DNA of 64,000 bases from Fluctibacter halophilus. GTDB lineage: Bacteria; Pseudomonadota; Gammaproteobacteria; Enterobacterales; Alteromonadaceae. The position numbers were made by a program, and so were the translations under genes. The notes below the pieces were generated by a model. It did no database searches, was not told the DNA's origin, and was given only the letters and a program-made list of their open reading frames with translations. The stretch is from contig NZ_JAJEWP010000002.1 in the NCBI RefSeq assembly GCF_020687825.1, forward strand, positions 124,001 to 188,000, written 5' to 3'. Below are positions 1 through 8,267 of this stretch, one piece after another (positions within the stretch are counted from its first letter, which is position 1; each line of letters opens with the position of its first letter).

Positions 1-468
1 GAAGGCCTTCAGCGTTGCCAGGCTGCCTTGCACCGGAGAGCCGTTTTCCATGCCCATGGGCAGTGAAATCAGGCCTTGTTTGAACTGTTCTTCGACATCC
101 GCCACGGAGGTGGCAATGGCAAACTTGTCTGGCGCGCGGCCGACGATGGCCTCGACGCTGTCGATCAGTTTATGTGCCAGTGCGGTTGACTCAGCCGACG
201 CGTCCAGCTCAGCGGGGACATAAATGGACATGAACGGTGCATTCAGGCCGCCCTGACGGGCACGGGGGTAATCGAAATCGCCCCCTTCTGTGGCCTGTGT
301 CACGTCGACCCATTGCTCGTTGACCCGATAAGGTACATCAATGTGTCCATCCACCAGAATATGTTGCTGGGTGAGCGCTTTGGCATGGGCCAGCACATCA
401 TCCTGCTGTTCAGCAACGGCAGCGCCGCACAGCGCAAGAGAGACAGTCAACGATAAGGGTTTCAACAT
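1..468 (-). CDS. Membrane dipeptidase, peptidase family M19 (N-terminal part, cut by window edge)
   Basis: This is the first 156 codons of a gene that continues beyond the left edge. The reading frame opens with a signal peptide (MLKPLSLTVSLALCGAAVA), so the enzyme should be exported to the periplasm. After it comes ILVDGHIDVPYRV, which matches the first zinc-ligand strand of M19 (renal dipeptidase-like) enzymes, in which HxD carries metal ligands. The family hydrolyses dipeptides, including D-amino-acid dipeptides. The ATG lies 3 bases after the stop of the S9 peptidase gene on the same strand, so the two are probably one transcript for extracytoplasmic peptide breakdown. The catalytic C-terminal part is not visible; the family call rests on the N-terminal third. 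Confidence 0.8.
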   Translation of the reverse strand, partial: MLKPLSLTVSLALCGAAVAEQQDDVLAHAKALTQQHILVDGHIDVPYRVNEQWVDVTQATEGGDFDYPRARQGGLNAPFMSIYVPAELDASAESTALAHKLIDSVEAIVGRAPDKFAIATSVADVEEQFKQGLISLPMGMENGSPVQGSLATLKAF

Positions 469-471
469 GGA

Positions 472-2412
472 TCAGTTTTCCTTTTCAGGTGAGGCCAGGT
501 GGCGTTCAAGAAATGCGGCCAGCTCGCGGTAAAAAATCACCCGGTTTTCCAGTTTGGTCACGCTGTGCCCTTCATCGGCAAAGCGTAAATAGGTGACCGG
601 AATACCTTTGGCACGCAATGATTTAACCATAGTATCAGATTCTTCGACCGGGTCACGAGGGTCATTCACACCGTGTTGATAAAACATAGGGGCAATGATG
701 TTGTTGACCGTATTGATGGGGCTATTGGCGGCATAAAATGCTTGCCAGCGCGGTTCGCGAATATCGCCGTATTCAATACGGTCAGAGGCTTTAAGGCCTG
801 GTGACGCATTTTGCAGTGCTTTTACCCAATCGGCGACACCGACAAATGATGCCCCTGCTTTAAAGGCCTGTGGGTAAGCCCCCATCACTGCATTGACCAT
901 GTAGCCGCCGTAGGAACCGCCCATCGCGGCGGCGCGTTGGGCATCAACCCGACCGTCTTTTTTCAGCCAGGCCAGCGCATCCACCAGGTCTCTGACACTG
1001 TCCAGGCGTTTGGTTTGATTGTCCAGCCGTGCATAGGTCTTACCAAATCCGGTGGACCCTCGTACATTGATATCCAGCACGGCAATGCCTCTGCTGACAA
1101 GGTATTGGGTTAAGGGCTGCCAGCTCGCTTTGCTCTGGGCAGTCGGACCGCCATGGATATCTATGACCACTGGTGGGACCTCGCCTTGAGGGGTTTCAGG
1201 CAGGTACAGCAGCCCCTGGAGCATCACGCCATCTCTGGCTGGAAACTGTACAACGGTTGGAAAGACGAATTGCTCAGCGCTTAACCCCGCCAACGTCGAA
1301 GGCAGTACTAACCTGGGGGTAGGATCATTGAGGTTCAGTACATAGACGTCGCCGGGCGTGTCAGGGCCACGCAACAGGATAGCTGCACTGGCGGTGTTAC
1401 CGCAGGAAAGGCTGAGGGTGCCAGTGGGTGTGTCTATCGGGGTTGCTTGTCGGGTTTGTTGATCCTGAATATAGAGCCGGTCAATGCCCTGATCATTCTC
1501 ACGCCACATCAGAGTGCGGTCCTGTTGACACAATTGAACGTCTTCGATGTTGTGTTGCACACTGCGCACGGTTGCTGTCTGGCTGTTGGCATAGTCGTAG
1601 TAAGCCAAGGCCATCATTTCACCGTCCTGATTCGTGGTGAAATAAAAGCCCGTACCATCCGCCTGCCACTGAATATTGTTGTAGCGAGCTGCAACGTCAG
1701 GTTTGAACAGTGTCTTGAGCGTGCCATCACCTTTGTCCGTATCCAGTGCATACAGGTTATTGGCATCTTCACCCCGTACCTCGGCCACCAATAACGTTGC
1801 TGAACCCGGACGCCAACTGACCGGGTAGTAGCCAAACTCGGCTTCATAGATACGCTTGCTGCCACCTTGTTCGAGATCCAGCAAGTACAGGTCGAAATCC
1901 CGTCCATTGCGTTCAGTGGATGCATAGGCAAGGTAGCGTCCGTCGGGACTCACAGGTCCTAGTGCCCTGAAGCTGTCATTGGCCGGCAGTAAGGGTTTTT
2001 CGTGCTTGCCGTCCAAGGTGATCATGACGAAGGCTTCTCGCTCATTGCCTTCATTATCGGCGGTGTAAATCAGGTGCCGACCATCGGGGTGCCAGCGATA
2101 GTTGCGCACACCATTGCCGAAGGTGAGCTGCTGCTGACGTCCATCCTTCAGATGCTTCACCCACAATTGCGGTGATCCGGTCACTGAACTGGTAAACGCG
2201 ATCACCGAACCATCGGGACCCATTTGCGCAGATTGAGCGCCACGGGACAACAGGATGCGTGAGATGTCGCTGGGTTGTTGCCCCGCATAGCCAATGGATA
2301 AGGGCTGTGCTGCAGGCGTATCCTGAGGATAGGGCCAGTCCTGCTCCGCTAACACCGGTGAACTCAGTGCAATCCCTGCCAGCAAGCTTGCGGTCAGTAG
2401 TGATGACGTCAT
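472..2412 (-). CDS. Secreted S9 family serine peptidase (dipeptidyl/acylaminoacyl peptidase type)
   Basis: A 646-residue protein with a signal peptide (about residues 1-22, ending SSPVLA). Residues about 50-370 are repeated WD/YWTD-like strands (such as GPVSPDGRYLAYAS) that form the N-terminal beta-propeller of prolyl oligopeptidase-family enzymes. The C-terminal alpha/beta hydrolase domain has GGSYGGYM with nucleophile Ser500, NDPRDP giving Asp584 and DEGH giving His616, so the triad is complete. It should release di- or oligopeptides from N-termini in the periplasm. An AAGAGGC ribosome site precedes the ATG. It is transcribed away from the RimK-like gene and runs directly into the M19 dipeptidase gene. 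The exact substrate cannot be told from sequence. Confidence 0.88.
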   Translation of the reverse strand: MTSSLLTASLLAGIALSSPVLAEQDWPYPQDTPAAQPLSIGYAGQQPSDISRILLSRGAQSAQMGPDGSVIAFTSSVTGSPQLWVKHLKDGRQQQLTFGNGVRNYRWHPDGRHLIYTADNEGNEREAFVMITLDGKHEKPLLPANDSFRALGPVSPDGRYLAYASTERNGRDFDLYLLDLEQGGSKRIYEAEFGYYPVSWRPGSATLLVAEVRGEDANNLYALDTDKGDGTLKTLFKPDVAARYNNIQWQADGTGFYFTTNQDGEMMALAYYDYANSQTATVRSVQHNIEDVQLCQQDRTLMWRENDQGIDRLYIQDQQTRQATPIDTPTGTLSLSCGNTASAAILLRGPDTPGDVYVLNLNDPTPRLVLPSTLAGLSAEQFVFPTVVQFPARDGVMLQGLLYLPETPQGEVPPVVIDIHGGPTAQSKASWQPLTQYLVSRGIAVLDINVRGSTGFGKTYARLDNQTKRLDSVRDLVDALAWLKKDGRVDAQRAAAMGGSYGGYMVNAVMGAYPQAFKAGASFVGVADWVKALQNASPGLKASDRIEYGDIREPRWQAFYAANSPINTVNNIIAPMFYQHGVNDPRDPVEESDTMVKSLRAKGIPVTYLRFADEGHSVTKLENRVIFYRELAAFLERHLASPEKEN

Positions 2413-2570
2413 TTTATTTGCCTCTTATTGTGTGCCCGGCGCAGACGCTGCGGGACCTGAGAATGCTAGCCTAGAGCAATGCCGGGCGGCGGTAAAGTCC
2501 ACGAATAAGGCGACACAAATATCTTTTCCTGAGGACAAATATTTTTCGTACAGAAACCCGTCTCTGATGC

Positions 2571-2598
2571 TTGTGAATTGCGCCATTGAGCCTATAGT
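2571..2598 (+). promoter_or_regulatory. Putative sigma70 promoter of the RimK-like/GNAT-C39 unit
   Basis: TTGTGA (2571-2576) and TATAGT (2593-2598) are separated by 16 bases, about 60 bases before the ATG at 2659. The 246-base gap between the divergent S9 and RimK-like genes holds no other clear signal. Confidence 0.4.
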
Positions 2599-2658
2599 GC
2601 GCGACATACCATCACAGGGCGCGGTGCTCTGTGTTTTGGCTTCTTTGCGGAGCGTAAC

Positions 2659-4119
2659 ATGTTTAAAACCCTCGTCGTTGTAGACAATCTGGCCTCACTG
2701 CCAGCCATGGATACAGAGACACTGGATTTCGACCAATACCTGGCCGAGTACCCCAAAGCAGGCGAACCTAAAACTCGGCTGATCAACTTATGTGCTACCC
2801 AGCGATACCTGAGTGAAGGGTACTATTGTTCATTGCTCGCAGAAGCCAGGCAGCACAAAGTGTTGCCCAGCGTAAATACCATCAATGATTTACGCACTCT
2901 GAGCGAGCAACAAGCCGAATCCAACACCGGCATGGCCGTGCCACAACCTTTGTTCAACGAGTTGAAAGGGTCCGGCGATGTGAATTTTCTGGTGGTGTTC
3001 GGGGGCTGTCAGCAGGCTCGCTACAAGCGCCTGGCCAAATATGTGTTTGAGCAATATCCGGCGCCGGTGTTATCCGTCGCTGTCAAGCATGTGCAGGGTT
3101 TGCCGGTGGTACAACTGGGCCTGTTGGGTATTCATGAGATGGCTGCTGAGGATTGGCCGTTTCTGGTTGAACGATTACAGCATTTTACTGCTACAACCTG
3201 GCGGCCAAGAACCAGTAAGAAACGGGCGCGCTGGGACATGGCGATCCTGGTGAATCCGGATGAAGCGACGCCGCCGAGCGATCAGAAGGCGATCAAGAAC
3301 TTTGTTAAAGCCGCCGAGCAGGTGGGTATCCAGGCCGATGTCATCACGCCGGATCAGGGCCGTTTAATCTCACAGTACGATGCGTTGTTCATTCGTGAGA
3401 CGACCGCCATCAACCACCACACCTATCGACTGGCACGTAAAGCCGAGCAGGATGGTCTGGTGGTAATTGACGATGCCACATCAATACTGCGTTGCTGCAA
3501 TAAGGTGTTTTTACAAGATGCATTCACCTACCACAAAATTCCCGCGCCGCGCAGTCGCTTTGTGTCGCATCTGGACGATGACGTGTGCGATGCACTGGAA
3601 CAGCAATTTGAATACCCGATGGTATTAAAGCTGCCGGAAAGCTCGTTTTCGATGGGGGTTTACAAGGCAGAGAACCGTCAGGAACTGACACAACGCCTGG
3701 CGGCGATGTTGGCACAGTCGGCGTTGGTATTGGTGCAGGAGTATGTGTACACCGAGTACGATTGGCGCATTGGTGTGTTGAATGGGCGGGCTATCTATGC
3801 CTGTCGTTATTTTATGGCCCGCAACCACTGGCAGATCTACAACCATGGCGCCAAGTCCCATACATCGGGTGACTTTGAAACCATGCCGACCTTTGAAGTG
3901 CCAAAGCCAGTTTTGGATGCCGCAGTTAAAGCCAGCGCTATTGTCGGTAAAAGCCTGTATGGCGTTGACATCAAATACCGTAACAATCAGGTGTATGTGA
4001 TTGAAGTGAATGACAATCCCAGTATTGAGTCCAAAATTGAAGACCAATACTTGGGCAAAGAGTTGTACATGATACTGATGCAAACCTTCGCAGACAGGTT
4101 GGAAGCCCGTGGACGCTAA
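2659..4119 (+). CDS. RimK-like ATP-grasp ligase with RLAN-type N-terminal domain
   Basis: A 486-residue cytoplasmic protein. The first 180 residues or so resemble the RLAN domain (the extension found on one RimK-like subfamily). Residues about 195-480 form an ATP-grasp fold, with FEYPMVLKLPESSFSMGVYK as the ATP-binding lysine/glycine-loop region, VLVQEYVYTEYDWRIGVL, and YVIEVNDNPSIES as the Mg-binding E/N motif. ATP-grasp ligases join a carboxylate to an amine through an acyl-phosphate; RimK itself adds glutamates to ribosomal protein S6. This subfamily is much longer than RimK (about 300 residues) and its substrate is not known to me. The ATG has GGAG six bases upstream. The end overlaps the GNAT-C39 gene by 11 bases, so the two are translationally coupled and probably act on one substrate. 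Confidence 0.85.
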   Translation: MFKTLVVVDNLASLPAMDTETLDFDQYLAEYPKAGEPKTRLINLCATQRYLSEGYYCSLLAEARQHKVLPSVNTINDLRTLSEQQAESNTGMAVPQPLFNELKGSGDVNFLVVFGGCQQARYKRLAKYVFEQYPAPVLSVAVKHVQGLPVVQLGLLGIHEMAAEDWPFLVERLQHFTATTWRPRTSKKRARWDMAILVNPDEATPPSDQKAIKNFVKAAEQVGIQADVITPDQGRLISQYDALFIRETTAINHHTYRLARKAEQDGLVVIDDATSILRCCNKVFLQDAFTYHKIPAPRSRFVSHLDDDVCDALEQQFEYPMVLKLPESSFSMGVYKAENRQELTQRLAAMLAQSALVLVQEYVYTEYDWRIGVLNGRAIYACRYFMARNHWQIYNHGAKSHTSGDFETMPTFEVPKPVLDAAVKASAIVGKSLYGVDIKYRNNQVYVIEVNDNPSIESKIEDQYLGKELYMILMQTFADRLEARGR

Positions 4120-5254
4120 TGCTGTGGCAGTGACATCTGTGGTTTCGCCCCTTGATATTGGTTTGCCGCAGCAGCAGGACCTGGATGCGCTGGTGGCGTT
4201 GGAGCAGCAGTGTTTTGACAGCGATCGCCTCAGCAGGCGGCAGTTCAAACATTGGTTAAAGGCGCCCGGGGGCGTGTTTCTGGTGGTCCGCGAGAAAGGC
4301 CTGGTGGTAGCGTATGGATTGGTGATCATGCGTAAAGGTACCCGCCTGGCGCGACTGTATTCGCTCGCGGTATCTCCTTTGATGCGTGGACGTGGTGTAG
4401 CGCGGGAGCTGTTATTGGCCCTGGAACAGGCCACCGTGGCGCAAGGCAAGTTGTTTATGCGACTGGAAGTGGCTGCGGACAACAGCGGTGCGATACACCT
4501 TTACCAGCAACTGGGTTATCGCACCTTCGGCACCTACAGTAAATACTACGACAACGGCAGTGATGCGTTGCGGATGCAAAAGCCCATACGCCAGGTGCTC
4601 AGTGCCCGGCGTTTGGGTGCATACCCCTGGTACCCGCAATCCACCGAGTTTACTTGTGGACCGGCGGCATTGATGATGGCAATGAAGCGTTTGCGCAGTG
4701 CGGAACCGCTGAATCTGGCGCGCGAGTTATGGATTTGGCGACAGGCCACAACCATTTACATGACCTCGGGTCACGGCGGATGTCATCCGCTGGGGCTCGG
4801 ATTAGCCGCTACAGAGTTGGGCTTTCAAGCGCAGGTGTACATCAATCAACACGAGCCATTGTTTCTCGACGGTGTGCGCAGTGAACACAAGAAAGACATT
4901 TTGCGCGCCGTGCACGAGCAGTTTGTAACCGATGCCGGCAAACAGGACATTCAGGTATTGTGGCAGGACCCCAGCGTAGAGCGCCTGCAGGCAGCGTTGG
5001 CAGAAGGCGCTGCGGTGTTGTGTTTGATCAGTACCTACCGGATGGATGGCCGAAAAGTACCTCATTGGGTGACGGTTACGCACATTGATGAAGATTGTTT
5101 GTACCTGCACGATCCATACCCTGATGATGAACACCCCCATCCGATGGATTGTCAGCACATTCCGGTTGCGCGGGAGGATTTCTCTTTCATGGCGGCATAC
5201 GGGAAAAACAAATTGCGCACAGCGGTAGTGGTTTATCCGGCCACAAAGGATTGA
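4109..5254 (+). CDS. GNAT acetyltransferase fused to a C39-like cysteine peptidase
   Basis: A 381-residue two-domain protein with a GTG start inside the preceding gene. Residues about 15-155 are a GNAT N-acetyltransferase: LYSLAVSP then RGRGVA (93-98, the acetyl-CoA pyrophosphate loop) and DNSGAIHLYQQLGYR. Residues about 165-381 resemble peptidase C39, the leader-peptide-cleaving family. Gln177 precedes TCGPAAL with catalytic Cys183, PHW supplies His319 and LHDPYP supplies Asp335, so all catalytic positions are present. No membrane or ABC domain is attached, unlike bacteriocin exporters. Acetylation and thiol-peptidase activity in one chain next to an amide ligase suggest processing or tagging of a peptide; the substrate is unknown. 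Another in-frame GTG at 4124 is a possible start. Confidence 0.85.
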   Translation: MDANAVAVTSVVSPLDIGLPQQQDLDALVALEQQCFDSDRLSRRQFKHWLKAPGGVFLVVREKGLVVAYGLVIMRKGTRLARLYSLAVSPLMRGRGVARELLLALEQATVAQGKLFMRLEVAADNSGAIHLYQQLGYRTFGTYSKYYDNGSDALRMQKPIRQVLSARRLGAYPWYPQSTEFTCGPAALMMAMKRLRSAEPLNLARELWIWRQATTIYMTSGHGGCHPLGLGLAATELGFQAQVYINQHEPLFLDGVRSEHKKDILRAVHEQFVTDAGKQDIQVLWQDPSVERLQAALAEGAAVLCLISTYRMDGRKVPHWVTVTHIDEDCLYLHDPYPDDEHPHPMDCQHIPVAREDFSFMAAYGKNKLRTAVVVYPATKD

Positions 5255-5512
5255 ATTATGTCGAAGTGTCTCCACATCCTTAATTAGGCATCGTAAGAGA
5301 TCAATCGGCAGATCAGTATGTTAGTAATTTGTTACCTGATCTGGCCGGGAATAGCCGTGACAACAAAGCGTAAATCCCACATACTTTGCCCCTCGCGAAT
5401 GCCCCGTCCATTGATGCGGGAACACGCAATTCGATAATCAAGCCACCGAGGGTGGTTGAACCAACGCCGGTCACGGAGTCGCTGGCGTATAAAACGATAA
5501 GAGAAAGAAGTA

Positions 5513-6289
5513 ATGACAATTAACTACGTTCCGCTGGACAAAGACAAACACAGCAACATTAAAGTCAAAGCACGTCACGAATTCGAATATGCCAAAACCA
5601 TTCACATGGCTGCAGTGACGTTGCGCGAGATGCCAATTATCGGTGGCAACATGCCGATCGTTTTCGTCAAGGATCCCAATACCGGCAACTTCCACACCAT
5701 TGCCATGTTCGGCCTGGAAAAAGGCAGCAACCTGTACGTAAAAGACAACAAGTGGCAAACCCATGTATTGCCAATGAGCGTGCAGCGTTTTCCGTTTGAC
5801 GTACGTCCTGACGGTGACAAACTGGGTGTGTTCATTGATGAGAACAGTGATCTGATCACCGATGACGGCGAACCGTTGTTCAACGACAAAGGTGAAGCGA
5901 CAGAGTTCCTGCAAATGCGTCATCGTATGCTGAGCGATATCGCCAACAGTGAAATGGCCACTGGCCGTATGATCAAAATGCTCGATGAACTCGGCTTGTT
6001 TGAAGAAGTGCAACTGAACGTGTTGCACGCTGACGGTAACAAGCGTTCTGTTACAGGCATGTTTGTGATCAGCGAAGAGCGCCTGAACAAGCTGGATGAT
6101 GACAAAATCATCGAGCTGCGCAAAGCCGGTTTCCTGGGCGCCGTGTATGCGCACCTGCTGTCACTGGGTCAAATCAACCGCTTGGCTTACCTGGCATCGA
6201 CCACTGATGCGCCGATCATGTCGATTCAAATCGCACCGGCAGCATCGGCTGAACAAGCCCAGAAAGCGGCTGAGACCGCTGACGCCTGA
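5513..6289 (+). CDS. SapC family protein
   Basis: A 258-residue protein recognised by its full-length similarity to the SapC family (Pfam SapC), named from a Campylobacter surface-layer locus. Typical stretches are FAKTIHMAAV-like (here YAKTIHMAAVTLRE), the central VLPMSVQRFPFDVRPDGDKL and the C-terminal AGFLGAVYAHLLSLGQINRL. It has no signal peptide or membrane segment, so it is probably cytoplasmic. The biochemical role of the family is not established. AGAAAGAAG precedes the ATG. It stands alone, 258 bases after the GNAT-C39 gene and convergent with galM, with a shared terminator. The gap upstream contains TATAAA at 5488 but no convincing -35. Confidence 0.82.
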   Translation: MTINYVPLDKDKHSNIKVKARHEFEYAKTIHMAAVTLREMPIIGGNMPIVFVKDPNTGNFHTIAMFGLEKGSNLYVKDNKWQTHVLPMSVQRFPFDVRPDGDKLGVFIDENSDLITDDGEPLFNDKGEATEFLQMRHRMLSDIANSEMATGRMIKMLDELGLFEEVQLNVLHADGNKRSVTGMFVISEERLNKLDDDKIIELRKAGFLGAVYAHLLSLGQINRLAYLASTTDAPIMSIQIAPAASAEQAQKAAETADA

Positions 6290-6310
6290 TAGGCCTGTTT
6301 TCAGTATTAA

Positions 6311-6337
6311 AAAAGCCAGCATATGCTGGCTTTTTTT
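6311..6337. terminator. Bidirectional intrinsic terminator between sapC-family gene and galM
   Basis: A perfect 12-base inverted repeat (AAAAGCCAGCAT and its complement) is flanked by A-tract on one side and T-tract on the other. It can stop transcription from both convergent genes. Confidence 0.85.
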
Positions 6338-6346
6338 ATGGCTAAG

Positions 6347-7396
6347 TCAGCGCAATTGCCAGTGAGTTTGGTAATGGACGGTGCTACCCGGATTTAGTCG
6401 TGCGCTGGGAAAGTGGGTGTGATTGGGGCTGTCCGGGAAATGTTGGGTTTCCAGGCACACGCCCTGATAAGGGGCGTAGATAGCGCCGTGCTTTCCGTGA
6501 AGGTGATTGGGCAGGAAGTTGCCGGCATACAGTTGCACACCGGGAAGGTCGGTGGAGACCCGCAGGCGACGCCCGTTACCAGGGTGATAGAGCTCACCTG
6601 CGACAAAGGGCCGACCGTTGACAGACGGATAGTCTTTCAGACACCAGTTGTGATCTGGTCCATTGGCGGTGACTAAACCTGCTTCCTGTGCCTCCACCAA
6701 CGCCCGCAGCGGGGTGGGGTGGCGAAGATCATAGGGCGTGGCTGCAACTGCACGGATCTCTCCGGTCGGCAACGCATCAGCCATCGCAGGTAAGTAATGA
6801 TCGGCGTTCAGCCACACCTGGGTGTCCAACACATCGCCGCTGTGATGGCCGGCCAGGTTCATGTAGCTGTGCTGGGTCGGACTGAATACCGTCGGGCGGT
6901 CGCTGTTGGCGGTATAGTGAATGGATAGTCCATCGTCGTGTAACCAGTAGGTGACGGTCATTGCCAGGTTGCCGGGAAAACCCTGGTCATTGTGTGGGCT
7001 GGTCAGGGCCAGACGAACACCCTGGGTGCCGTTGTGGCACAATGGAGTGGCTTCCCACACCCGACGATGGAATCCGTCGGCACCCCCATGCAGACAATGT
7101 CCGGCCAGGTTGGTAGAAACCCGGTAAGGTTGCTGGTCAATGCTGAAACGACCGTGTCCGATGCGGTTGGCATATCGACCGACCACGGCGCCCTGACAAC
7201 TGTTGTCTGACAGATAGCCATCAAGATCATCAAACCCCAGGATGATGTCATCCTGGGGCGCACCGGTTATCGACCAGGACTGAATGATGGCGCCCAAGGT
7301 CAACACATCCACCGTCATTCCCCGCTTGTTGCTCAGGCGATAGCGGTAGATTGCCCGACCATCGGGTAAGTATCCGAAGCATTGCGGTTGTTGCAT
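6347..7396 (-). CDS. galM: Galactose mutarotase (aldose 1-epimerase)
   Basis: A 349-residue enzyme that interconverts alpha and beta anomers of galactose and other aldoses, feeding the Leloir pathway. NLAGHCLHGG and HSYMNLAG contain the two conserved histidines, and VCLETQHFPDSPN contains the catalytic glutamate. The frame extends 66 codons further upstream, but the ATG at 7396 is chosen because GAGG lies at the right spacing and MQQPQCFGYLPDGRAIYRY starts where family members start. No other galactose gene is in the window, so it stands alone. Length is normal. Confidence 0.93.
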   Translation of the reverse strand: MQQPQCFGYLPDGRAIYRYRLSNKRGMTVDVLTLGAIIQSWSITGAPQDDIILGFDDLDGYLSDNSCQGAVVGRYANRIGHGRFSIDQQPYRVSTNLAGHCLHGGADGFHRRVWEATPLCHNGTQGVRLALTSPHNDQGFPGNLAMTVTYWLHDDGLSIHYTANSDRPTVFSPTQHSYMNLAGHHSGDVLDTQVWLNADHYLPAMADALPTGEIRAVAATPYDLRHPTPLRALVEAQEAGLVTANGPDHNWCLKDYPSVNGRPFVAGELYHPGNGRRLRVSTDLPGVQLYAGNFLPNHLHGKHGAIYAPYQGVCLETQHFPDSPNHTHFPSARLNPGSTVHYQTHWQLR

Positions 7397-7666
7397 GGGA
7401 GCCTCGCTGTCAGCGGTTGAAGTGAAGGCGCCGTTAACGCCGATGGCGGCTACTGTACAGAACTTTTTGCGTGGATGCGAGGTCACGAATGGGCAGGAAT
7501 CACACAGCGATGTTGGCCTGCATTTGGTATACTTAAACGGCAATACCCTCTCTTCCCCGGTCCCTCCGACCCTCGGAAAAACGGAAATCTGCAACGGAAT
7601 CAGACGCTTCCATTGAAGCCTTATTTTTAAAGGCCTTCGGCGGGGTGGATTCGTCGTTTTTTATTC
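7397..7666. other. Non-coding gap between galM and the dcw promoter
   Basis: This part of the 412-base divergent gap holds no gene I can support. A TATACT-like element (around 7528) lies within it without a convincing -35. The rest of the gap holds the dcw promoter and MraZ repeats, listed separately. Confidence 0.5.
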
Positions 7667-7696
7667 TTGACAGGACGGTCAGGTGGTACCTAAACT
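7667..7696 (+). promoter_or_regulatory. Putative main promoter of the dcw cluster (Pmra)
   Basis: A consensus TTGACA (7667-7672), an 18-base spacer and TAAACT (7691-7696) lie about 110 bases before mraZ. The predicted start, near 7703, falls inside the first MraZ-type repeat, a layout that fits autorepression. Confidence 0.6.
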
Positions 7697-7700
7697 GTGC

Positions 7701-7740
7701 AAAGTGGGTAAAAGTGGCAAAAAGTGGATCAAAGTGTCCA
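7701..7740 (+). promoter_or_regulatory. MraZ operator: four direct 10-bp repeats
   Basis: Four head-to-tail units, each starting AAAGTG, lie at an exact 10-base period (7701, 7711, 7721, 7731); the first three continue with G and the last is AAAGTGTCCA. In E. coli, MraZ binds TGGG-type direct repeats spaced at 10 bases just downstream of the mra promoter and represses the cluster. Period, copy number and position here match that model. Confidence 0.75.
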
Positions 7741-7808
7741 TCGCAGTCGCAAATCAGTGCTTACAAAACAACAATAAAAGCAACTAACTAAAAAAAGGCT
7801 TAGGGGAA

Positions 7809-8267
7809 ATGTTCCGCGGCGCTAATGCAATCAATCTAGATGCGAAAGGCAGAGTGGCGATACCAACGCGGTATCGGCAACTGCTGCTGGATGATTGTCA
7901 GGGACAGCTGGTTTGTACGATTGACACTCAGCAAAGCTGTTTGCTGCTTTACCCACTCACTGAATGGGAAGAAATCGAGCTCAAGTTAAGTAAGTTATCC
8001 ACCATGAATCCTCATGAGCGTCGCCTGCAACGGCTGTTGCTGGGCTATGCAACCGAGGGGGAAATGGATAAAAACGGTCGGTTTCTGCTGTCTTCTCCAC
8101 TTCGTCAGCATGCCAACCTCAACAAAGAGGTTATGCTGGTGGGTCAGTTAAATAAATTTGAAATCTGGGATGCTGAAACCTGGCACGCACAAGTATTACG
8201 TGACATGGAGACCGAGCAGACCGGCGACTTTGAACTGACCGAACGTCTTCAGGACTTCTCCCTCTAA
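7809..8267 (+). CDS. mraZ: Transcriptional regulator MraZ
   Basis: A 152-residue protein with two tandem SpoVT/AbrB-like swapped-hairpin halves: [22 protein letters not shown] near the start and [20 protein letters not shown] in the middle. It forms a ring-shaped oligomer that binds direct repeats upstream of its own gene and represses the division and cell-wall cluster. It heads that cluster. AGGGGAA is very close to the ATG. The stop codon shares one base with the rsmH start (TAATG), so translation is coupled. Length is normal for the family. Confidence 0.96.

Follow-up and report, generated by a model that had tools for sequence, protein, structure and literature searches.

What a ligase that forms amide bonds and an acetyltransferase fused to a thiol peptidase may be doing side by side is the question raised by two adjacent genes of Fluctibacter halophilus, here called gene A and gene B (Table 1), which lie in the window analysed, a stretch of 64,000 nucleotides (contig NZ_JAJEWP010000002.1, positions 124,001 to 188,000). 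The original prediction, made from the letters of this DNA, saw in them one unit that makes, caps and releases a peptide or a peptide tag. Our analysis points to a short non-ribosomal peptide as the product of a cytosolic pathway that includes N-acetylation in this case; the C39-like domain and other peptidases would serve in trimming or turnover, and we give this reading a probability of about one half. The window copy itself is an ordinary member of an uncharacterised pair.

Gene A carries an RLAN domain (PF14401, 126.6 bits, E 8.5e-37, residues 25-168, Pfam cut-off 25) and a RimK-type domain (PF08443, 50.8 bits, E 2e-13, residues 290-458, cut-off 21); with both families above cut-off in a single protein it is an RLAN-RimK ligase, predicted to join carboxylates to amines, and its residues E449, N451, D452, N453 and P454 are present in 60/60 ligases aligned. 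Gene B is a GNAT-DUF3335 fusion, in which a GNAT domain (PF00583, 58.5 bits, E 1e-15, cut-off 20.7) precedes, in the same chain, a domain named 'Peptidase_C39 like' in Pfam (PF11814, DUF3335, 288.8 bits, E 2.6e-86, residues 172-375, cut-off 25). The catalytic residues proposed earlier, Gln177, Cys183, His319 and Asp335, were correctly placed and are conserved: among 44 GNAT-DUF3335 proteins (class survey, described below, plus the window) the first three occur in 44/44 each and the aspartate in 42/44, while all four are invariant in a further set of 44 sequences, made up of the window and 43 of the 80 named loci (also described below). This conserved set of Gln, Cys, His and Asp is that of the papain-like peptidases of clan CA, and the C39 domain is presumed to be active.

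The 11-base overlap of the two genes reported earlier is true if the first GTG (4109) is the start of gene B, but further in-frame GTG codons at 4124, 4130 and 4139 are also candidates, which makes a short gap possible. Residues 1-3 of the structural model have a predicted local distance difference test (pLDDT) score below 50, and the alignments of gene B relatives in the named loci begin at residues 13-25 in many cases and at residues 1-8 in some; the overlap is thus tentative.

The association of the two genes was followed in two surveys, one of 274 genomes of the class, where 4 of 48 DUF3335 genomes were dropped for weak matches (21.5-24.5 bits), and one of 59 genomes of the window's family and order ("relatives"), where 1 of 24 was dropped in the same way. 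Moreover, gene B relatives were confirmed in at least 590 stretches, which may outnumber the genes since two patterns were searched, and the best 80 of these, being those most like the window and not a random sample, make up the named loci. In the class survey, a strong DUF3335 match was found in 44 genomes, RLAN in 63 and both in 43, that is in 43/44 against 10.1 expected (Fisher test, 1.6e-33, which ignores descent), G154 being the lone genome with strong DUF3335 and no RLAN. The two genes share one locus in 40 of these 43 genomes, while in two (G199, G208) the contig ends at the genes and in one (G060) they lie apart. Among the relatives the agreement is equally close: strong DUF3335 in 23, RLAN in 23/23 of these and in 24/59 overall, 35 genomes lacking it, with G298 alone having RLAN without strong DUF3335. 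The two domains start at most 2.5 kb apart in 20/23 relatives with the pair, and in G302, G318 and G320 the pair is on different contigs.

Most pairs stand next to each other, but in varying gene order. Among the named loci gene A comes before gene B in 36 (one with a partial A), the genes are convergent in 5 and divergent in 17, and 22 loci hold no complete A; for these last, RLAN was found outside the fetched locus in 20/20 genomes searched and the remaining two loci hold a fragment of A at a contig end. A quickly built tree of 76 ligases (unrooted, supported by the Shimodaira-Hasegawa-like approximate likelihood-ratio test only, with 16 of the 80 named loci, without G298 and with the short or broken L085, L091 and L093 left out) requires at least 5 changes of order. 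That two unrelated genes stand together by chance could be argued from the genomes where they lie apart, namely G060, G302, G318, G320 and the 20 named genomes with RLAN elsewhere, but the two genes co-occur even in genomes where they are not linked, and linkage has outlasted these several changes of order, so that we consider chance hardly credible. The random co-occurrence named beforehand as the refutation is thus not what the genomes show. That the pair persists both when unlinked and after rearrangement can hardly be accounted for unless the two genes share a function. As a separate observation, gene B relatives with more than 90% query coverage occur on large Azospirillum and Tistrella plasmid records (H1-H8) as well as in records titled Puniceicoccaceae and Kiritimatiellota (L199, L209), which is a hint of horizontal spread.

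The C39 domain is the part of the system that can be absent. Twenty RLAN genomes of the class survey have no strong DUF3335, and in 12 of them a stand-alone C39-like protein adjoins the ligase; the other 8 comprise one with GCS2 only (G216), five with a lone GNAT (G040, G171, G177, G260, G272), one where GNAT and ligase look broken (G151) and one with neither beside the ligase (G116). G298, which belongs to the window's own family, shows a ligase followed with a 4-base overlap by a lone GNAT of 152 amino acids that replaces the GNAT-C39 fusion (L262:4256-6159). The DUF3335 and PF13529 profiles gave no match in the five lone-GNAT genomes or in G298, PF13529 being a weak probe, to which gene B itself scores 23.6 bits. 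Four lone-GNAT ligases are scattered among fused ones on the tree, requiring 4 changes of which at least 2 are forced by well-supported branches, a pattern that suggests repeated loss of C39 rather than late gain, and hence that ligase and GNAT can, as judged from sequence, work without it. In the locus L093 (5623-7243) GNAT and RLAN sequence is merged and the ligase is spread over several open reading frames (ORFs); this locus looks broken or misassembled.

A complementary variation is offered by a sister operon. Ten loci (Table 1) contain a C39-like protein, an RLAN ligase and, by phmmer, a GCS2-family gene and a gene of the N-formylglutamate-amidohydrolase family (FGase), the Pfam scans (PF13529, PF04107, PF05013) having been made on one representative each, and the GNAT of gene B has no match in these loci. 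The C39 domain of gene B is homologous to the C39-like protein of this operon (hhalign probability 95.3, E 2e-8), and on the tree the 12 full-length ligases labelled as sister type are set apart from the rest by a fully supported branch. GCS2 and FGase are small-molecule enzyme families, and a combination of GCS-type with ATP-grasp enzymes is reminiscent of glutathione-like synthesis.

Fold comparison gave indications about both ends of a possible product. In the model of gene A (pLDDT 85.2) residues ~190-485 are nearest LysX (Z 28.0, 2.5 Å, 268 residues), with ArgX at Z 27.8 and RimK at Z 27.0 and an identity to LysX and ArgX of 20-21%. In the model of gene B (pLDDT 91.0) the GNAT part is nearest Ard1 (Z 22.9, 1.6 Å, 147 residues), with RimI (2cnm) at Z 22.7, 1.9 Å and 148 residues, and the alignment reveals a stretch SKYYxxGxDAxxMxK common to this domain and to the Ard1 of entry 4kvm, which we take to be from S. 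pombe. In these models, gene A resembles enzymes acting at a carboxyl end and the GNAT of gene B enzymes acting at an amino end, a likeness of fold that leaves the substrate undecided. Of the scheme of making, capping and releasing, the coupling and a likeness to enzymes of both peptide ends are therefore retained, but not an obligatory machine of ligase, acetylase and protease, since six genomes keep ligase and GNAT without C39 and the sister operons keep C39 without GNAT; nothing was found that prefers a peptide tag over a small peptide.

For the C39 part the comparison is less informative, as the Foldseek and VIA lists for the whole of gene B are filled by GNATs. A search of the PDB with its profile brought no convincing match: the best hit, at E 0.012, was a designed binder that we attribute to chance, and BtrH_N proteins account for three of the 7 sequences listed, with a non-significant E of 0.24. 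These three would suit a C39 domain working as an acyl or peptidyl transferase, as do BtrH and phytochelatin synthase, that moves the ligase product to another amine, and a portion of PMC10318531 deals with relatives from clan CA that have activities of this kind. However, a sequence match that is not significant, fold lists filled by the GNAT domain and the lack of a known acceptor make such a transfer improbable.

More familiar identities were tried and rejected. As a RimK, gene A scores 85.4 bits, below the TIGR00768 cut-off of 143.4, and another gene of the genome is of RimK type (226.9 bits to PF08443); as a RimI, gene B scores 67.0 bits, below the TIGR01575 cut-off of 86.4, and the genome has its own RimI at G000:C7:404883 (114.5 bits, above cut-off). 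The model of the synthetase for N-acetylglutaminylglutamine amide (NAGGN; TIGR03103, cut-off 569) gives 28.8 bits for gene B and 35.4 for the best match in the whole genome. The C39 peptidase of ABC exporters (PF03412) is absent from the 8 Pfam families listed at E ≤0.001. A role in anti-phage defence was rejected too, with 0 PADLOC families at E ≤0.001 for both proteins; matches in PHROGs were to general ligase and acetyltransferase families only, and Rfam at gathering scores found nothing in window positions 1-8000.

RimK, LysX and glutathione-type ATP-grasp ligases join amino acids to carboxylates at the expense of ATP. In the pathway that we favour, gene A would use ATP to couple a small acceptor, itself an amino acid or a peptide, through its carboxylate to an amino acid, and the GNAT half of gene B would acetylate the alpha-amino group of this acceptor or of the product, giving an N-acetyl peptide in the manner of NAGGN. 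The C39-like half might then, as a thiol hydrolase or transpeptidase, trim, rearrange or turn over the product, the steps following one another in the cytosol. Since some lineages are without C39, this last step would be accessory; other lineages would add metallopeptidases (DUF2817/M14-like, M42-like), and in some GCS2 and N-formylglutamate-amidohydrolase-like enzymes would stand in place of the GNAT. This pathway is supported by the peptide chemistry found around the ligase (GCS2/FGase, DUF2817, M42-like), by the co-occurrence of the pair, by the separate RimK-type and RimI genes, by the precedent of NAGGN and by the finding of neither a recurrent short ORF nor an obvious carrier in the neighbour clusters listed. 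Several points weigh against it: the nearest folds (LysX, ArgX, RimK; Ard1, RimI) include protein-end enzymes and fit a protein target equally, gene B is far below the NAGGN-synthetase model (28.8 vs 569 bits), the Fisher tests take no account of descent, and DUF2817 is not enriched with RLAN genome-wide (4/10 strong DUF2817 genomes, p 0.18, after 14/24 genomes, none above 26.2 bits, had been dropped).

LysX, ArgX and RimK act on a protein's carboxylate, and the GNAT is nearest to protein N-alpha-acetyltransferases. The same folds would therefore fit a cycle of the RimK/RimB kind, in which gene A extends a protein's C-terminus with amino acids, the C39 domain takes these off again and the amino end of the protein or of the tag receives an acetyl group from the GNAT. 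The precedent of RimB and RimK, as presented in part of PMC11957791, and the DUF155 gene found directly after A or B in 11 loci speak in favour of such a cycle; however, no recognisable target gene is among the neighbour clusters listed, the lineages where C39 is absent while ligase and GNAT stay would possess a writer without that eraser, and the sister type has, in GCS2 and FGase, members of small-molecule enzyme families. We regard it as the main alternative, tentative and somewhat unlikely on present data.

The DUF155 genes bear on a narrower version of this protein-end cycle. They lie on the same strand as the gene that they follow, also in L132 (Aliiglaciecola sp.), the nearest relative that the window has. 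Near two sister operons a DUF155 gene stands on the opposite strand. DUF155 occurs in 37/274 genomes, 21 of which have RLAN against 8.5 expected (1/38 matches, below cut-off, was dropped). The DUF155 gene of the window genome is unlinked, on another contig (G000:C10:97682), and 20 stretches around other DUF155 genes, mostly chosen as not beside the pair, had unlike neighbours, so we regard DUF155 as a side link to the pair. DUF155 is a bacterial relation of the mitochondrial RMND1, which is linked to mitochondrial translation. A scheme in which a protein end, perhaps that of a translation component, is modified reversibly, with the RLAN ligase writing amino acids on a carboxyl end, C39 erasing them, the GNAT acetylating the alpha-amino group and DUF155 as partner, seems to us rather doubtful; if true, a second cycle of ligase and eraser would exist besides RimK/RimB, with a papain-like peptidase instead of an aspartic one.

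The coordinates of these genes and of their neighbours are collected in Table 1.

Table 1. Positions of the pair, its domains, its neighbours in the window and related genes in other loci
Feature	Position	Strand	Basis or remark
Gene A, RLAN domain and predicted RimK-type ATP-grasp ligase	2659..4119	+	ATG, 486 aa; Pfam, model, conservation
Gene B, GNAT fused to DUF3335 papain/C39-like thiol hydrolase domain	4109..5254	+	GTG, 381 aa; Pfam
GNAT domain of gene B (~residues 15-164), RimI/Ard1 N-alpha-acetyltransferase type	4151..4600	+	Fold matches, alignment
DUF3335 domain of gene B (residues 172-375), Gln177, Cys183, His319, Asp335	4622..5233	+	PF11814 and conservation
S9 prolyl-oligopeptidase-like gene	472..2412	-	PF00326 7.1e-43; divergent
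M19 gene	starts before window, ends 468	-	
SapC-family gene, downstream	5513..6289	+	PF07277 9.2e-67
Sister operon loci	L081, L082, L084, L086, L087, L089, L095, L096, L097, L100		
M42-like genes	L133:11139-12263, L148:5390-6484, L149:1439-2536, L151:5162-6271, L154:5442-6569		
DUF155 genes	L132:9150-9935, L136:9156-9962, L188:9086-9931, L076:5739-6533, L105:4463-5266 and six others		

The peptide-metabolism theme read earlier into the S9 and M19 genes holds insofar as both genes are present, but their linkage to the pair is not conserved: in the named loci S9 has one weak match (82.6 bits) while M19 and SapC have none at E 1e-20, and in the class-survey loci all three occur in the window's own locus only. 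They were therefore rejected as partners, and it is other peptidases that recur in other lineages. Neighbour clusters were listed from at least 4 loci in the class survey and from at least 5 of the named loci (at most 40 clusters). Of the third genes that the original prediction proposed to list, DUF2817, M42-like, DUF155 and GCS2/FGase genes recur near the ligase, but no obvious carrier is among the clusters listed. No recurrent short ORF of its own was recognised near the pair in these clusters either, blastp at 1e-6 being weak below 40 amino acids; the short clusters whose coordinates were compared (for example L172:7582-7797, L184:7736-7870) fall within DUF2817 genes. It is textbook knowledge that C39 peptidases cut leaders and that ATP-grasp ligases tailor graspetides, so that a pathway resembling that of ribosomally synthesised and post-translationally modified peptides, with C39 cutting the leader of a precursor, could be imagined here; but in view of this search for short ORFs, and of the missing match to the PF03412 exporter, we judge it very unlikely.

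DUF2817 (PF10994, assigned on representatives) is found in 22/80 named loci, in all 22 within 300 bases of A or B; in the 4 strong DUF2817 genomes of the class survey that have RLAN it is adjacent and separates A from B. One member is also above the cut-off of the M14 carboxypeptidases. The best class-survey match to DUF2817 (G107:C1:709620-710651) has one internal TAG. An M42-like gene lies directly upstream of gene A in 5/80 named loci, and the one member scanned reaches 21.0 bits, just below the Pfam cut-off of 23.2. Other neighbours are restricted to particular lineages: 8 class-survey loci hold an M20 peptidase and 5 an ArgA-like gene, while 10 of the named loci hold MgtC and 6 a GreA-like gene. 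In four class-survey loci (L061, L062, L115, L117) a gene for an M14 zinc carboxypeptidase, divergently oriented, stands beside the pair.

The pairing recurs in databases, as the original prediction had supposed, both families being in Pfam and the GNAT-DUF3335 fusion in print, and no experimental function for the pair was found in the literature searched, consisting of Creative Commons (CC)-licensed papers. As far as our searches reach, the dispensability of C39 and the links to DUF2817, M42-like and DUF155 genes, measured here, are additions. Gene B relatives are common, and the ligase partner accompanies them almost without exception in the genomes examined; a conserved ligase, acetyltransferase and papain-like domain probably make a product absent from the papers searched. 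Ready comparisons for finding this product are offered by the natural variants, which lack C39, lack the GNAT or carry GCS2/FGase.

Among known systems, GNAT-DUF3335 fusion proteins, the same fusion as gene B, were reportedly described by Iyer et al. in 2009, according to a citing paper. The nearest solved folds of the gene A ligase part are LysX and ArgX, but gene A scores 74.4 bits against a cut-off of 275.6 for the LysX model, and no LysW-type carrier was noticed among the neighbour clusters listed, no genome-wide search having been aimed at it. The published suggestion for the GNAT-DUF3335 fusion, in the part of PMC10318531 used here, is a role as peptide ligase or acetylase. RimB, in the portion of PMC11957791 drawn upon, removes the glutamates added by RimK and stimulates RimK, and RimK/RimB fusions exist. 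Our pair is similar in combining a RimK-type ATP-grasp ligase with a peptidase, the fold of gene A matching RimK at Z 27.0, but differs in its RLAN N-terminal domain, in a papain-like rather than aspartic peptidase, in the added GNAT, in a score below the RimK cut-off (85.4 vs 143.4 bits) and in the other RimK-type gene of the genome; neither the scanned neighbours nor the listed clusters showed a RimB-like aspartic retropepsin, though no search was made for PF05618 itself. The Rlo operon of Pseudomonas (RloA peptidase, RloB, RloC ATP-grasp; PMC12239564, in part) likewise unites a peptidase and an ATP-grasp protein in a single operon, but its peptidase is a secreted aspartic one accompanied by a membrane protein, and that part of the paper does not mention C39 or RLAN. 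A table of Pseudomonas fosmids (in an excerpt of PMC9756463) places a RimK-family protein next to a GNAT. The best worked parallel to the proposed pathway is NAGGN synthesis (AsnO, Ngg, glutamyl aminopeptidase), where one GNAT-family enzyme both acetylates and ligates and a glutamyl aminopeptidase is encoded in the same operon (PMC8070244, in part). Here, by contrast, ligase and GNAT are separate genes, TIGR03103 is far below cut-off and no asparagine-synthase gene is among the neighbour clusters listed; what the two would have in common is an operon that combines N-acetylation and the forming of peptide bonds with a peptidase, and an M42-like gene likewise adjoins gene A in 5/80 named loci.

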